Of a stretch of DNA of 25,992 nucleotides, positions 20,432 to 25,992 are shown piece by piece. The stretch's first letter is position 1, and each line of letters starts with the position of its first letter. Position numbers and translations under genes: made by a program. This DNA comes from a virus: positions 1-25,992 of the IMG/VR virus record IMGVR_UViG_3300042402_001290; one strand, given 5' to 3'. Under the pieces are notes generated by a model. It saw only the letters and a list, made by a program, of their open reading frames with translations. It was not told the origin of the DNA and searched no databases.

Positions 20432-22105
20432 TTATAATCCTTCTTGACCTGCCGGTGGTGTCGGTGCATTTTCTTCACCGCTAATTGGACTACCTTCTTC
20501 TGCTGGTGTCTCTTCTGGCGTCATGTCTCCTGCAGCCATGTCTGTATCAAATCCTCTAACCCCAACACTACCTAATCCAGGTGTGCTTTCACTATCAGGA
20601 GTTGTTCCGGGCTTATTCTCTTCTTCCCACATACGTTCGTTTTCTAATATTTCTTCGTCAGTTAAGCCTAAGTATTTGGACAATACAAAACGTCTGCTTA
20701 GATATGGAACTGGTTCTAAGTTTGCAAATACGTTAGCACGGGCAGCATGAACTTCAATTTCTTTATACTGACTAAATGATTGCGGCTCCGCAAACTTAAG
20801 TTCAAAAATACCACTGTCGATGTTAATACCACGATTTTTCATAAAGAGCTTAAATTCTTTATCAAACACAGGGCTAACAATATTTTGCAATCTCTTACAA
20901 TATTGGTTAAATCTGTGTTCTTGAATAAACGCAGTTCCTACTTTACCGTCAACATATGTTGCTGTGCCATCGTCTGGACCGGTTGGCAAATAGCTTGTAG
21001 GAACACGTAATGCTCTTAACATTTTATTTGTAAAATATCTTAAGTCGTCAATTTCGCCTAAGTTAGTGCCGCCTGGTAATACTTCAACTTTGCTACCACG
21101 ACCTTCTGCAGTCTGAGCAAAGAAATAATCTTCCATAATGCTTAACGGGTTGTATGCTGCATCCATAATAGTAGTGCCGCCGCCAGTTCTGCTTGGAATA
21201 CGCTTTTGGTGAATTTCATTTTTTACACGCTCAACAAAGCCCATTGCTTTGTTTGCAGGCATGTTACCTACGTCAACATAAAACACACGGCGTTCTGGTG
21301 CTCTTTGAACACGATAGATAATAATACTATCTTCTAGCAATTCTTTTTGCTTGTAAGTTTTAAAGATTGGGTCTAATATACTACTACCAAATGGATAATC
21401 ACTATCCATACCTTCGGTTAATGCGCTATGTACAACATGTGTTGCATCAACACTGTATTCTTGTATATTGCCAAAGTTTGATTGATAGTTTGCTCCGTTG
21501 CCTACAGGTGTTCTGTCAACAACTTGTGATCTAACTGTACTATTAACTGTACTGTATGATTGTGCAAGTTGAACAGGTTTACTAACTGTTTTGTCTTTAA
21601 TATTAAGGTTAATGTTCTTTAAAACATATTGCTCAGGTTCTTTACCTTTTGCTTCGTTAATAATAACTTTACTTACATCAACTGGATTTACATAATACAA
21701 TTCCCATGTTTCGGGGTCACGTATAAAAAACTGATCACCATACTTTATAATGTTGCGGAATGTTCTAAACATTCTGCGATCCCAGTCTTGTAAGTTGTTC
21801 CATTGCTGTAGTGTTTGCTCTAATATTCGAACTTCACTTTCAGTTGCGTCTTCTTTGAATCTAAACTCAAAAGGAGAATTTGTATCTTCGTTTAATTGTG
21901 TGCTAAATTCTGCAATGATATCAAGTGCAGCATTTACTTCGCTGTCCATGTCCATTTGATCGTACTGTGCATAACGCTCTACACGGTTTGGTTGCCCGCT
22001 ATAAACTTCAGGTAGCCAGCTTTGAAAGCGACTAGAACTGCTAGGTTTAGAGCTATGCGAGTCTTGACCTTGATATACAGTAAAATGCTTTTTCCATCCA
22101 GCCAT
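20432..22105 (-). CDS. 20: Portal vertex protein (T4 gp20-like)
   Basis: 557 aa from ATG 22105 (MAGWKKHFTVYQG); T4 gp20 has 524 aa. The portal family is recognised from DMDSEVNAALDIIAEFST near residue 53, RTFRNIIKYGDQFFIRDP near 110-125, YRVQRAPERRVFYVDVGNMP near 265, and LPGGTNLGEIDDLRYFTNKM with LRVPTSYLP near 345-370. The last 60 residues are acidic and Pro-rich, probably a disordered tail. It forms the dodecameric ring for DNA packaging and neck attachment. An in-frame TTG at 22108 is less likely as start: GGAG lies 8 nt before the ATG. The ATG overlaps the endonuclease stop as TGATG, so translation may be coupled. Confidence 0.96.
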   Translation of the reverse strand: MAGWKKHFTVYQGQDSHSSKPSSSSRFQSWLPEVYSGQPNRVERYAQYDQMDMDSEVNAALDIIAEFSTQLNEDTNSPFEFRFKEDATESEVRILEQTLQQWNNLQDWDRRMFRTFRNIIKYGDQFFIRDPETWELYYVNPVDVSKVIINEAKGKEPEQYVLKNINLNIKDKTVSKPVQLAQSYSTVNSTVRSQVVDRTPVGNGANYQSNFGNIQEYSVDATHVVHSALTEGMDSDYPFGSSILDPIFKTYKQKELLEDSIIIYRVQRAPERRVFYVDVGNMPANKAMGFVERVKNEIHQKRIPSRTGGGTTIMDAAYNPLSIMEDYFFAQTAEGRGSKVEVLPGGTNLGEIDDLRYFTNKMLRALRVPTSYLPTGPDDGTATYVDGKVGTAFIQEHRFNQYCKRLQNIVSPVFDKEFKLFMKNRGINIDSGIFELKFAEPQSFSQYKEIEVHAARANVFANLEPVPYLSRRFVLSKYLGLTDEEILENERMWEEENKPGTTPDSESTPGLGSVGVRGFDTDMAAGDMTPEETPAEEGSPISGEENAPTPPAGQEGL

Positions 22106-22650
22106 CAAAGTTCTCCGTTACTGTTTTGTTTTTTTATTTGTGCGGCTCTTCTCGCAGAGCTCCATGGTTTTCCTTTATGAGCAAACGGTTTTTCTTTGAT
22201 TTTTTCTAATCGTTGTTTTCGATACTCGGGATCGTCCCACATATTTTGTACTACTTGTCGAATTTTTTCAGCATGTTCTAAAGTTTTTGTGCCTTTATAA
22301 TTTTCAGTTGTTGTCTTTTTTACGCCAGTTAAGGACTCGGAAATGCGTTGTTTTGTTTCTGGTGCATGATGCCAGTTAGAATTTCCTGTTTTACCGCCTC
22401 TTTGTAAATTTAACAGTGGACCTGTGTTTTTACATTTCATACCATAATGTTCAATTAGATATTTTTCTTTTTCCCATGCTTCTTCTTGAGTCATATTATC
22501 TTCTATAATAATATAATTTATGTCAGGAACAGATACATAAAGATGTTTTTCTATTGCTCTTCTTCCTTTTCCCATGCCAACATAATATGGATTATTATCA
22601 TAATCCAAATATATATAGACATAATAATTTTTTGGTGTCTTCCATGACAT
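22105..22650 (-). CDS. Free-standing GIY-YIG homing endonuclease
   Basis: 181 aa from ATG 22650 (MSWKTPKNYYVYIYL). The open frame extends 45 codons further upstream, but that part overlaps the end of the preceding gene and looks non-coding, while AAGAGAT lies about 8 nt before the chosen ATG. The GIY-YIG core is Y10-V-Y and YYVG (22-25), with Arg30/31 in GKGRRAIEKH, a Glu in EEAWEKEKYLIEHYG (57-70) and Asn81 in LLNLQRGG. After it come DNA-binding NUMOD3-like motifs: HHAPETKQRISESLTG (94-109) and KGKPWSSARRAA (about 159-170). Such genes spread by cutting alleles that lack them. Here it sits between the tape-measure-like gene and the portal gene without breaking either. An AATAAATA octamer at 22679-22686 may transcribe it. 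Confidence 0.88.
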   Translation of the reverse strand: MSWKTPKNYYVYIYLDYDNNPYYVGMGKGRRAIEKHLYVSVPDINYIIIEDNMTQEEAWEKEKYLIEHYGMKCKNTGPLLNLQRGGKTGNSNWHHAPETKQRISESLTGVKKTTTENYKGTKTLEHAEKIRQVVQNMWDDPEYRKQRLEKIKEKPFAHKGKPWSSARRAAQIKKQNSNGEL

Positions 22651-22678
22651 GTGTTTATATCTCTTTTGTTTTGTAGTA

Positions 22679-22686
22679 TATTTATT
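22679..22686 (-). promoter_or_regulatory. T4-late-like promoter octamer before the homing endonuclease
   Basis: The minus strand reads AATAAATA 29 nt before the ATG at 22650 and 2 nt past the stop of the tape-measure-like gene. Confidence 0.4.
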
Positions 22687-22687
22687 C

Positions 22688-24391
22688 TTATTGGAACATA
22701 GCACCAGATCTAATGGCAGCTGATAATTCAGCCATAATAGCTCTATTTTCTGCAATATTTTCTGCTGTTCGTGCAAAAAAATCACCTAAAGCACTTCTTA
22801 CACCTTGACCAATAGCGTCGGGTGTCAGTGCGTCAGTTGCAGCAACACCACTGTCACGTATTATCGACGCAAATTCAGCAAACTGGGCAGTCGCTGCTTG
22901 AACGCCTGCAGTGCCATTTACGCCTATTTCCATTATACGCTGCAATGCCTCTATACTTTCTGTTTCATTTAAAGCACTGGTTCCTGAAGCGGTTAATATA
23001 GCGTTGAACATCGCTGCTTGCATTTGTTGTATCATTACTTCTGAATCTTGTCTCATGCCTGCTATTGTTAAATTCGACGATCTTACTTGGCCTGCTGCTT
23101 GATCAAATGCGGCAATTAGTCCGGCCAATGATGTATTCATTTGATCTACTACAGGTGGGGTAGCTTGCATTGCCGCAGTTAATGCCATAGTAGCACCTTC
23201 TACTCCGCCGCCTCTACTAAGTATTCCTAATTGTTGTTTTTGAGTGTCATTCATATTGTCAAACCCAATGGCCAACTGACTCATTATTGCTTGAGCCATT
23301 TGAGCATCCCCTGCATTTGCAGCGGCTGCAGCTTGTTCAATAGCCCCATAAATATCCAAACCTGCTACGCCTTGTGCAACGCCTGCAAATTCTGCAAATC
23401 CTTCATTGCGTACAGCTGGATTCATGCCTAACATCTGATTTGTCAATCCTAATTGCATCATTTGTTGCACAGCCGGGCCTAATTCTGTCATTGCCATTAC
23501 AGCGGTTCTTGCAGCATTTGCTTGATCATCTTGTAACCCTGCCATAGCGGCAGAAAAATCAGCGTTACGATCCATGTCCATTCTTGCTCTTATACGAGCG
23601 TGAACGTCTTGGCCTGTGAGTCTTGCTACTGCCATTTGCTGCATATATTGTTCTTTCAATGCTTCAGACATTTGGTCAGCATTGAGCTTTTGCATTTCCA
23701 TGGTACTAGTTAACTGTCGACGGATTTCTAACTCGTCTATCATATACTGTGCTGCTTCTGTAGAAGTCATGCCTAAATAACCCACGTCTTCTGTGTTTTT
23801 TCGTAGAGCAGCAACAAACTGAATAAGCCTATTTGTTCCCTCAGTGGAATTTTTACCCAAACTAGTAATAGTTGTTCCGAATGTACTGACATATGCAGTT
23901 ACTTGTTCTAGCCCTAAACCAACTGCGGCTGCATCATTTCTCAAATCAATCAGAGACGTACCTGCATTAGCACCAACCCTCGAAAGTTTTGCCATACTCT
24001 CAGACGCTTGTTCTACTATTCCTACTAGAGATCCTAATACCGAACCGATCTTTTCCATTCCAAACCCGGCAAACATAGATCGAACTGCTTCTTGTATTCC
24101 TGCATTAGCTATTAAAGCAGAAAAACCAGATTCTATACCAGTAAAAAGTCGGGTAAGACCCGACTGTTCGGATGCAGGACCTATGTTAGCGGCCGACGAT
24201 GCTAGTCTCCCAGATACACTGCCGCCCGCCAGGTTGTTTAATGCTGTTACTTGCGCCTGTGTTCCGGTTTGAATTATAGCAGTTTGTTGCTTCAATTCAG
24301 TTAACATTTGCTGAGAAGTATAATCCATTGCGAAATCGGGAATTTCGATTCCAACTGCAACACCTCCGACTGGTATATTAATTATTGCCAT
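22688..24391 (-). CDS. Tape-measure-like tail protein (possible T4 gp29 counterpart)
   Basis: 567 aa, Ala/Gly/Met/Gln-rich and mostly helical, close in length to T4 gp29 (590 aa), the tape measure/hub protein. A hydrophobic Gly-rich segment lies near residues 100-130 (FAGFGMEKIGSVLGSLVGIV). It is followed by a helical repeat region containing YVSTFGTTITSLGKNSTEGT, then RLIQFVAALR and YLGMTSTEAAQYM, which resembles a block seen in tape-measure proteins of large myoviruses. No lysozyme or peptidase motif was seen. It is divergent from, and adjacent to, the putative tail assembly chaperone at 24448, as expected for tape-measure genes. It begins a leftward transcript with a perfect TATAAATA octamer 39 nt before the ATG. 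Direct homology to gp29 is not shown; another internal virion protein is possible. Confidence 0.55.
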   Translation of the reverse strand: MAIINIPVGGVAVGIEIPDFAMDYTSQQMLTELKQQTAIIQTGTQAQVTALNNLAGGSVSGRLASSAANIGPASEQSGLTRLFTGIESGFSALIANAGIQEAVRSMFAGFGMEKIGSVLGSLVGIVEQASESMAKLSRVGANAGTSLIDLRNDAAAVGLGLEQVTAYVSTFGTTITSLGKNSTEGTNRLIQFVAALRKNTEDVGYLGMTSTEAAQYMIDELEIRRQLTSTMEMQKLNADQMSEALKEQYMQQMAVARLTGQDVHARIRARMDMDRNADFSAAMAGLQDDQANAARTAVMAMTELGPAVQQMMQLGLTNQMLGMNPAVRNEGFAEFAGVAQGVAGLDIYGAIEQAAAAANAGDAQMAQAIMSQLAIGFDNMNDTQKQQLGILSRGGGVEGATMALTAAMQATPPVVDQMNTSLAGLIAAFDQAAGQVRSSNLTIAGMRQDSEVMIQQMQAAMFNAILTASGTSALNETESIEALQRIMEIGVNGTAGVQAATAQFAEFASIIRDSGVAATDALTPDAIGQGVRSALGDFFARTAENIAENRAIMAELSAAIRSGAMFQ

Positions 24392-24447: not shown

Positions 24448-25290
24448 ATGAACAATCCGCTAGAGAATTATTACAGAAACAAGGAAATATATATCAAATT
24501 GCCATCAGGCGGTAAATGGTATAAAACAAAACCAAAGTTATCTGTATCGGGAGAAATAGGCATTATGCCTATGACTACAAAAGATGAAATGATATTAAAG
24601 GTCCCGGACAGTTTATATAACGGAGAATCGTTATTCATTGTAATAAAAAGTGTAGCACCTGATATTGAAAATCCGTATGATGTTGCTATACCTGATGTTG
24701 ATGCAATTCTAATTGCAACACGAGCAGTTACACAAGGTAAAGACATGAATGTTTCTGTTAAATGTCCAAACTGTAATGAAACAACAGACTATGCAATAGA
24801 CATACCGTCGATGTTGAGTAAAATAAAAACTATCAACGATGATGTTGAAATTGAGATTAAACACTTAAAACTTAAATTAAAACCAAACACACTGGCAATC
24901 ATGACAGCATCAAGTATAGAAAGTGTAGAAGTGGCTAGACTCAGAAAAACTATAGTCGATTTAGAAGCTAAGAATGATTTTGAAAATTCTAAAAAATTAG
25001 TTGAACAGAGTCTGAATCGAATTGCGGCTGCAAATCTAGCAGTAATCGCAGACATGATCGAATCAGTAACTACGCCAGACGGGACCGTAGTTACTGAGTA
25101 CAAAGATATACTTCAATGGGTTCAGAATTTAGACTTAAAAAGTAACGAAAGAATTAAAAAAGCCGGAGAACATTTAAATGTAAGTGGTATCCCAAGAACA
25201 CACACGTTTACATGCAGTAACGAGTTGTGCAACCATACGTTTGACGCAAGTGTTGAAATTAACCCCACTTTTTTTTTCACTCCGAAATAG
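24448..25290 (+). CDS. 26: Baseplate hub / tail assembly protein, T4 gp26-like (short, 0-frame form)
   Basis: 280 aa. The N-terminus (IKLPSGGKWYKTKP, then SGEIGIMPMTTKDEMIL and SVAPDIENPYDVAIPDVDAI) matches the T4-type baseplate protein family that includes gp26. Cys106 and Cys109 (CPNC) together with Cys256 and Cys261 (CSNELC) look like a split zinc ribbon around a helical insertion (residues 155-200). T4 gp26 (208 aa) is needed for baseplate hub assembly. The gene is divergent from the tape-measure-like gene. The ribosome binding site is weak (AGG about 9 nt before ATG). Near the end of the frame is a run of nine T residues, after which it stops at TAG 25288-25290; a -1 shift there would extend the protein (see 25278-25523). 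Confidence 0.85.
   Translation: MNNPLENYYRNKEIYIKLPSGGKWYKTKPKLSVSGEIGIMPMTTKDEMILKVPDSLYNGESLFIVIKSVAPDIENPYDVAIPDVDAILIATRAVTQGKDMNVSVKCPNCNETTDYAIDIPSMLSKIKTINDDVEIEIKHLKLKLKPNTLAIMTASSIESVEVARLRKTIVDLEAKNDFENSKKLVEQSLNRIAAANLAVIADMIESVTTPDGTVVTEYKDILQWVQNLDLKSNERIKKAGEHLNVSGIPRTHTFTCSNELCNHTFDASVEINPTFFFTPK
25263..25290 (+). other. Putative programmed -1 ribosomal frameshift window
   Basis: The -1 frame is closed by TAA at 25260-25262, and the 0 frame ends with TAG at 25288-25290. The 28 nt between them contain nine consecutive T residues (25269-25277), read in frame 0 as ACT TTT TTT TTC. T TTT TTC fits the X XXY YYZ slippery heptamer. No clear downstream stem-loop is visible. A homopolymer sequencing error could give the same picture. 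Confidence 0.65.
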
Positions 25291-25523
25291 CAACAACAAA
25301 TGATATTTCTAAAGTCATCTTAAATTATGAGAAGATGTCTAAAGGTATACGCAAAGAAATTTTTGACATTGTGTTATATTCGAGCGGAGCATTTAATATA
25401 TCAGAACTATGGAATGTTCCATTAGGATATCTAAAAGAAATCACACAATCAATTATTGATAAAAACGAAAAAGAAAAACAAGCATTAGATAAAGCTAAAG
25501 GTATATCATCAACAATGTTTTAA
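25278..25523 (+). CDS. -1 frame extension of the gp26-like protein (gp51 / GT-type tail chaperone domain)
   Basis: From codon CAC 25278 this frame is open for 81 codons to TAA 25521-25523; fusion at the slippery site gives about 358 aa. The sequence (SKGIRKEIFDIVLYSSGAFN, then ISELWNVPLGYLKEI) has the pattern of tail-assembly-chaperone C-terminal domains: a short helix, an IS-x-L-W/Y-x-x-P block and a charged helix. The only internal ATG (25335) has no properly spaced Shine-Dalgarno sequence, and no GTG or TTG start exists upstream in frame. Expression by frameshift is therefore more likely than independent initiation. In T4 gene 51 follows gene 26, so this may be a reduced gp51 counterpart; that homology is inferred. 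If not frameshifted, the gene would be a 62-aa ORF at 25335-25523. Confidence 0.65.
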   Translation, partial: HSEIATTNDISKVILNYEKMSKGIRKEIFDIVLYSSGAFNISELWNVPLGYLKEITQSIIDKNEKEKQALDKAKGISSTMF

Positions 25524-25539
25524 TTTTGTTATATACTTT

Positions 25540-25601
25540 ATTCGATTAGCTACGCTAATCATCAATCTTCGCTTAGTAGCTCGATTGAATTATTTTTTTT
25601 T
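25540..25601 (+). terminator. Rho-independent terminator of the rightward gp26-like operon
   Basis: ATTCGATTAGCTA (25540-25552) can pair with TAGCTCGATTGAAT (25577-25590) using two G-U pairs and one bulged C. A nine-T run follows at 25593-25601. A competing perfect hairpin, GATTAGC-TAC-GCTAATC (25544-25560), and CAATC/GATTG pairing can form within it. It lies 16 nt past the stop at 25521-25523, and the T-run fixes the orientation as plus. Confidence 0.8.
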
Positions 25602-25992
25602 ATAATCTTTTATGATTATATATTACCTGGAGTTTCAGTCGCACTTAGCTTGTTACAGCTAAATGCGACCGAACAAGGCATTACCCATCGTCCACTAGCG
25701 CAACGTTATAGTGCAACCTTATACAGGCAGAGGCGGTTGTGCTTTACCCCTTTACACACTGCTTACAACGCAGAAACACCGACTGCAATAACGTCTACAG
25801 TATCGGCTATCCGTGGGATCCAATGGCACAGGAGAGCCCACTCATTTGGTTTGTTTCCCTCAGCAAGGTCCGTTGGCTAAACACCTAGTGTCGCCTCCTC
25901 AATGCTTTTATATGGAGGGTATGTCTTTTTGATTTTGGAGAGATTCTAATAGAGCCTTGGATTTGCCAACACGGATGTCGATTATGCCGTTA
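25602..25992. ncRNA. Candidate large structured non-coding RNA, truncated by window end
   Basis: No convincing reading frame is present. GC rises (47% in 25741-25800), unlike the AT-rich flank. Stems seen: 25638-25650 with 25657-25669 (GTCGCA, one C-A mismatch, TTAGCT, 6-nt loop); AGTGCAACC 25710-25718 with GGTTGTGCT 25735-25743 (two G-U pairs); a CTGC/GCAG hairpin near 25759-25773; CCGACTG 25779-25785 with CAGT and CGG 25798-25806 (AT bulge); GTGGG 25813-25817 with CCCAC 25837-25841; CCTCC 25894-25898 with GGAGG 25914-25918. Many local stems in a non-coding tract next to a terminator suggest an ornate RNA of the GOLLD/ROOL kind found in phages, but no family was recognised. G-U evidence is split: the 25710 stem favours plus, the 25638 stem favours minus, so the strand is open. 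Confidence 0.5.

Follow-up and report, generated by a model that had tools for sequence, protein, structure and literature searches.

What kind of element occupies the gene-poor tract at the end of this phage contig? The window analysed here comprises an entire linear contig of IMG/VR, 25,992 bases long, and its genes for a portal, a head protease, a major capsid protein, tail fibres and a gp26-like baseplate hub mark its source as a T4-like myophage. The original prediction was that the last 390 nt or so may form a giant structured RNA that continues beyond the window and belongs either to GOLLD or ROOL or to a new class. GOLLD is a large non-coding RNA with multiple pseudoknots that phages and prophages carry; it was first found in aquatic metagenomes, is often longer than 800 nt and often lies near tRNA islands. 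ROOL is likewise found in phages and prophages and has several pseudoknots and no known protein partner. Both form RNA-only cages, and their function is unknown (PMC12286853). It is obscure partly because few members occur in tractable phages. As set out below, the tract carries a member of a predicted folded non-coding RNA family, previously unlisted, that is common to many uncultured T4-like phages and cultured giant phages.

The tract and its coding content

The expected rise in GC is present (0.50 across 25630-25905 versus 0.39 contig-wide), as is a terminator-like hairpin with a T run directly before the tract (Table 1). The tract was also said to lack any credible gene. This holds apart from its last 85 nt, which encode on the minus strand the C-terminus of a SegE-type GIY-YIG protein (NGIIDIRVGKSKALLESLQNQKDIPSI, followed by a stop). 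In relatives the full SegE/GIY-YIG protein has 146 aa (PF19835, E 9.5e-35 for the complete relative). Read as protein-coding sequence, the tract yields this SegE tail only, and the protein homologue extends no further. Since the tail takes up the end of the tract, the non-coding part measures about 290 nt, is read from the minus strand and lies entirely within the window. What continues past the contig end is the SegE gene; the RNA itself is complete. A structured RNA is thus borne out by the comparative evidence, but "giant" overstated the size of this copy.

A long near-perfect stem was correctly recognised and reaches 17 bp as minus-strand RNA. Its two G-U pairs become A-C mismatches on the plus strand, so that full pairing is obtained only in RNA read from the minus strand. 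Stems alone are no proof, however. The folding energy of the tract is not significant (z -1.3 on the plus and -1.5 on the minus strand), with 8-10% of shuffles folding equally well. Single-sequence folding energies were left out of the evidence, and the case for the RNA is a comparative one.

Two observations concern the surroundings of the tract. Many contigs, including the window, stop within a few hundred bases of SegE (L015, L018, L025, L028, L041, L045, L060, L063, L064, L071, L072, L076, L080). Assembly may break repeatedly at the SegE locus, as would be the case for a segment common to many strains. Moreover, a second homing-endonuclease gene (phrog_314, E 4.7e-16) lies at 22105-22785 on the minus strand of the window, between the portal gene and a 567-aa gene, and has a homologue in few RNA-bearing loci.

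Table 1. Features of the window around the RNA, with two copy-bearing loci of cultured phages
Feature	Position	Strand	Remarks
Baseplate hub gene, T4 gp26-like	24448..25290	+	convergent with the RNA; phrog_150, E 7.5e-16
62-aa ORF	25335..25523	+	kept in 15 loci
Terminator-like hairpin with T run	25540-25597	+	after the 62-aa ORF
Structured RNA, about 290 nt	25634..25919	-	ends approximate, placed by homology to relatives; 5' end at the high coordinate
3' hairpin, 17 bp	25634..25673	-	two G-U pairs; U-A to C-G compensatory change in L088
Pd 3' strand (CACU), then contiguous PK1 3' strand (AUAACGU)	25703..25713	-	
Variable hairpin Pf	25717..25727	-	in relatives CCU/AGG, CCUA/UAGG, CUAG/CUAG
Pc 3' strand (ACAACCG), then without gap Pe 3' strand (CCUCU)	25729..25740	-	together the signature CAACCGCC
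Pe 5' strand AGGGG	25747..25751	-	partner CCUCU, 25733-25729
Pd 5' strand AGUG	25757..25760	-	partner CACU, 25713-25710
Pc 5' strand CGUUGU	25765..25770	-	partner ACAACCG, 25740-25734
Hairpin Pb	25779..25806	-	variable; arms 25806-25798 and 25785-25779; loop gives one PK1 strand
PK1 5' strand ACGUUAU	25788..25794	-	partner AUAACGU, 25709-25703
Hairpin Pa	25813..25841	-	stem GUGGG (25841-25837)/CCCAC (25817-25813); encloses the conserved CUCU motif
Helix P0 3' strand GAGGG	25857..25861	-	partner of 25915-25919
Helix P0 5' strand CCCUC	25915..25919	-	within the final SegE codons; pairs with 25857-25861
SegE-like GIY-YIG nuclease gene, 3' end	25908..25992	-	truncated where the contig ends; immediately upstream of the RNA
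Copy-bearing locus of 121Q	326.6-327.3 kb		
Copy-bearing locus of RaK2	279.6-280.2 kb		

Relatives and distribution

Relatives of the element were collected in several ways. An exact search with the hairpin and an internal 18-mer returned L004-L007, L088 and L089. More distant homologues (L008, L010 and L013) came from loci neighbouring SegE, and their alignment showed an invariant segment. A pattern made from this segment was found in 77 contigs, and a second pattern, combining two separated motifs, gave at least 120 matches. The element is carried by at least 188 IMG/VR loci. These comprise at least five sequence groups, which keep the same order of elements despite most letters differing. 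In each of 18 large contigs, exactly one copy of the RNA is present.

Close relatives allow the RNA to be compared with its neighbours. Between the window and L088, the RNA core is 99.5% identical, versus 70.2% for the hub gene; between L006 and L088, identity is 88.9% for SegE and 78.6% for the PMM gene. Selection would appear to act on the RNA, the core being more conserved than the adjacent protein genes.

The family was defined by Pc, Pe, Pd and PK1, by contiguous 3' strands of Pd and PK1, and by the motif CGUUG...CAACC(C)GC. All of these are present in the window and in 18 of the 19 other named copies. As for the genomic place, between SbcC/gp46 and a convergent gp26 hub gene, the gp26 side is seen in the window and the SbcC side in L006 and L007.

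Conserved structure and covariation

Two alignments were scored for covariation. The first (A3) consists of 39 divergent uncultured copies, with the window type excluded, and covers five helices. Its cells are 80.5% paired, and its covariation score is 0.388, versus 0.156 in shuffles. In hairpin Pa, two pairs show at least four pair types each, with 39/39 copies paired. Helix Pc (CGUUGN/NCAACCG) shows AU, UA, GC and CG at position 85/127, while in Pe (NNNGG/CCNNN), which crosses Pc, 92.8% of the cells are paired and four pair types occur at 117/137. Helix P0 covaries across L001, L008, L010 and L156, which read CCCUC/GAGGG, CCCCC/GGGGG, UCCUC/GAGGA and UCCCC/GGGGA. The compensatory changes expected of related sequences if the tract encodes an RNA are thus present.

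A covariance model, R1, was built from A3. It matches the window at 25847-25727 on the minus strand with 34.8 bits (E 3.4e-7), the window type being absent from the seed, and it also matches in 29 of 80 SegE loci. In a negative control of 98 bacterial loci picked solely by a 14-base motif, R1 gave nothing below E 0.18. The cultured phage that is nearest by SegE, Methylophilales phage Melnitz, gave no R1 match.

The pseudoknot PK1 is complementary in all 20 named copies, including the window, and Pd in 19 of them; the 3' strands of the two helices are contiguous in 19 of the 20 copies examined. At least nine distinct PK1 sequences occur among the named copies. In an anchored test, the PK1 strands of one copy scored 16.7 on average, versus 12.2 for swapped strands (sd 2.4); the unrestricted test gave 18.8 versus 15.9. 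An unrestricted search for PK1 together with Pd was too permissive, and signal and noise were not separable in it.

The second alignment (A4) holds 16 cores from cultured jumbo phages. In its multiply pseudoknotted four-helix core, 351 of 351 cells are standard pairs, and 15 of the 22 pairs show compensatory changes. The covariation score of 0.556 compares with 0.192 in shuffles (0 of 500 reach it) and with at most 0.131 in slid controls. The choice of ends for the A4 sequences took the pairing into account; this tilts the result somewhat towards the structure, though it would not account for support of the degree observed. G-U pairs are used throughout, for instance in 13 of 16 sequences at columns 75/96. 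Covariation support of this kind is as strong as any structured RNA gets short of experiments. Comparison of the copies shows a transcript predicted to fold into a conserved core, which would form a compact, multiply pseudoknotted unit.

Copies in cultured jumbo phages

In its portal and SbcC proteins, this lineage is nearest to jumbo phages (Phosso, PA5oct and relatives). A blastn search of cultured phages with the group A-E RNAs returned nothing credible, which would suggest a family confined to uncultured phages. This reading was wrong because blastn cannot bridge the sequence distance; it was overturned by R1 matches in the jumbo phages to which portal/SbcC relatedness pointed, and confirmed as wrong with a blastn search using RaK2. 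In Atu_ph07, RaK2, GAP32 and PA5oct, R1 reached E-values of 6e-5 to 0.75 at the best places, in regions that are unannotated or hold dubious small ORFs only. These scores are weak by themselves, and the jumbo-phage copies rest on the A4 covariation, blastn paralogy and synteny. The RaK2 search matched 44 phage records, among them 121Q and Escherichia phage Sharanji (K-12 MG1655), and a genome was often matched at several places.

The family is therefore found in cultured giant phages of E. coli, Klebsiella, Salmonella and other hosts, such as RaK2, 121Q, Munch, GAP32 and CBB. Several jumbo phages have two to four paralogous copies in gaps that are mostly unannotated. The verified cores number four in Munch, three each in 121Q and GAP32, and two in RaK2. 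The jumbo-phage copies look like 450-600 nt, versus about 290 nt in the window, and their 5' and 3' domains vary in size. The PA5oct copy has the same place as the window RNA, flanked by SbcC and the hub gene. Similarly, one copy of 121Q (326.9 kb) has gp46/endonuclease VII on one side and the hub gene on the other, as in uncultured phages. The family is kept at one locus across very distant phages.

In published jumbo-phage annotations, the RNA fills gaps of 600-1000 nt that are left blank or assigned dubious small ORFs. Doubtful small ORFs are annotated over or opposite the RNA in PA5oct (L401, 3340-4680) and in Hallingskeid (L411, 884-1495). At the syntenic place in Phosso (L405, 3460-4474), a 1-kb unannotated gap gave no R1 match; a copy that has diverged strongly, or a different RNA, may be present there.

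Since the family is present in cultured phages of laboratory E. coli, the role of a large phage RNA becomes directly testable.

Genomic place and transcription

The setting of the RNA is highly constant. Of the 127 loci holding the gp26 hub gene, 126 have it downstream of the RNA on the opposite strand, and of the 127 loci holding SbcC/gp46, 126 have it upstream on the same strand. Portal and capsid genes follow further downstream; wherever a full-length capsid gene was found, it is about 8-12 kb downstream of the RNA and on the same strand. SegE is far less constant: 18 loci have it inverted, and many other carriers lack it or have it at a distance. It is therefore regarded as a neighbour of the RNA rather than a partner. 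The idea that SegE and the RNA home as one unit was dropped on the same grounds.

An exact TATAAT is found 250-480 nt upstream of Pc in 16 of the 18 jumbo copies (4.2 expected), often accompanied by an extended -10 and a TTGRGACA-like -35. In the window type (L006), no promoter above chance was found. Because of this, and because P0 overlaps the last SegE codons, the RNA of the window type may be processed from the SegE transcript. For the family, it is strongly suggested that the RNA would be an independent transcription unit and not the leader of a downstream gene.

Terminator-like hairpins with T runs were observed at two other places. In L407, L408, L412, L406, L455, L463 and L466, one lies inside the 3' part of the RNA, ahead of a second conserved CCCC/GGGG hairpin, and transcription of the RNA may end prematurely or in a regulated manner in these copies. 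In L410, L454 and L461, one stands right after the presumed RNA promoter, as if a short leader transcript were made.

Searches for known RNAs

At the gathering level, neither the window nor the RNA of 14 additional loci matched any Rfam 15 family. In E-value mode, no meaningful match was obtained for the window, for groups C and D or for five cultured phages. The GOLLD and ROOL models did not match the window at E up to 10, nor other member types at the cut-offs used on them, and the proposed membership in either family was given up. Models of group I and group II introns, tmRNA, RNase P and tRNA likewise gave no match in the window. Unlike an intron, the element lies between genes, not inside one. 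The window is without a tRNA island: no tRNA was found in it, and among 14 loci scanned, tRNAs occurred in L093 only. The other half of the original alternative, a new class, is strongly supported by the covariation, the synteny, the spread and the absence of an Rfam match. No description of the RNA was found in searches of the open literature, jumbo-phage papers included, although one may exist in subscription journals or on bioRxiv.

Function and alternative explanations

In the reading that best joins these results, the element is a stand-alone gene for a trans-acting, pseudoknotted non-coding RNA, found in T4-like jumbo phages and in uncultured phages related to them; from sequence comparison we assign this reading a probability of roughly 0.7. 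In the fold that the comparison shows, the loop of hairpin Pb pairs with a downstream strand to form PK1, and this strand directly adjoins the second long-range helix, Pd. Pc and Pe cross PK1 and Pd, giving a compact interlocked unit. The RNA would be made during infection and, as a folded molecule acting in trans, would serve the cycle of the phage itself. Its likeliest form may be the scaffold of a ribonucleoprotein or, by analogy, a self-assembling RNA complex like GOLLD or ROOL. Action in trans through a folded complex is suggested by the independence of the gene, the interlocked pseudoknots and the GOLLD/ROOL precedent.

The RNA might instead act on its own transcript, as a 3' UTR structure or a processive antitermination element comparable to put of HK022. 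The group A RNA directly follows SegE on the same strand, with P0 reaching into the SegE codons, several jumbo copies are flanked by genes that share one orientation, and paralogous copies are scattered over the genome, all of which would suit such an element. Nevertheless, the syntenic 121Q copy reads plus and is flanked by two minus-strand genes, one divergent and one convergent, and a cis element is also difficult to reconcile with the almost invariably convergent downstream neighbour, the inversions of SegE and the copies' own TATAAT. Given also a structure far more elaborate than that of known put elements, action in cis is considered rather unlikely. An origin of replication, at which the transcript would serve as a structured primer similar to ColE1 RNA II and several copies would mean several origins, is improbable. 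It would agree with the adjoining recombination-replication nuclease genes (gp46/47, resolvases), the sigma-70-type promoter and the several copies per jumbo genome, but the single copy in each of the 18 large contigs speaks against it. Equally improbable is a role in virion assembly or packaging, comparable to that of phi29 pRNA. The constant place upstream of the portal, protease and major capsid genes on the same strand invites this idea, yet position is a poor guide to function, the promoter type of the jumbo copies resembles a host sigma-70 promoter and not a late one, and no likeness to pRNA in sequence or fold was seen.

The two remaining explanations question the nature of the element itself. 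A diverged GOLLD, ROOL or other known Rfam family would also be a large, pseudoknotted, phage-borne RNA of unknown function, but the Rfam scans and the missing tRNA island contradict this explanation, which is very unlikely. A conserved DNA element or protein gene, in place of an RNA, is hardly tenable. A 76-aa plus-strand ORF (25650-25880) is open in the window and its closest relatives, but stops break its frame in the relative L013, and it was rejected as a gene. Furthermore, the G-U pairs throughout the family and a 3' hairpin that pairs fully only as minus-strand RNA are features of a transcript.

The stand-alone RNA gene could moreover represent a wholly new class of large phage RNA, a once-per-genome core part of uncultured T4-like phages that was amplified to several paralogues in enterobacterial jumbo phages and acts in trans by means of a fold in which three or more pseudoknots interlock. 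The chances of this wider proposal are judged to be about even. If true, it would reveal a previously unseen RNA machine of giant-phage infection.

Comparison with known systems

By any test applied, the new RNA appears not to be homologous to known large phage RNAs. The pRNA of phi29 is a phage RNA needed for head function; the new RNA lies upstream of head genes and has neither sequence nor structure in common with it as far as was found. The HDV-like ribozymes, which form a double pseudoknot, presumably come close in layout, since the order P1, P2, P1.1, P4 resembles that of Pc, Pd, Pe and Pf. However, the new RNA is without a P3 between Pd and Pe, the A3 linker being too short for a P3 hairpin, has no HDV match in Rfam and carries the additional pseudoknot PK1 with its upstream hairpin. 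With ROOL it shares several pseudoknots and carriage by phages, but it has no Rfam match and differs in genomic place, size and core motif (CGUUGN...GGUACNGNNCAACCGCC). As with GOLLD, the RNA is large, multiply pseudoknotted and phage-borne; in contrast to GOLLD, it has no Rfam match, is about 290-600 nt long and resides between the gp46 and gp26 genes of T4-like phages.
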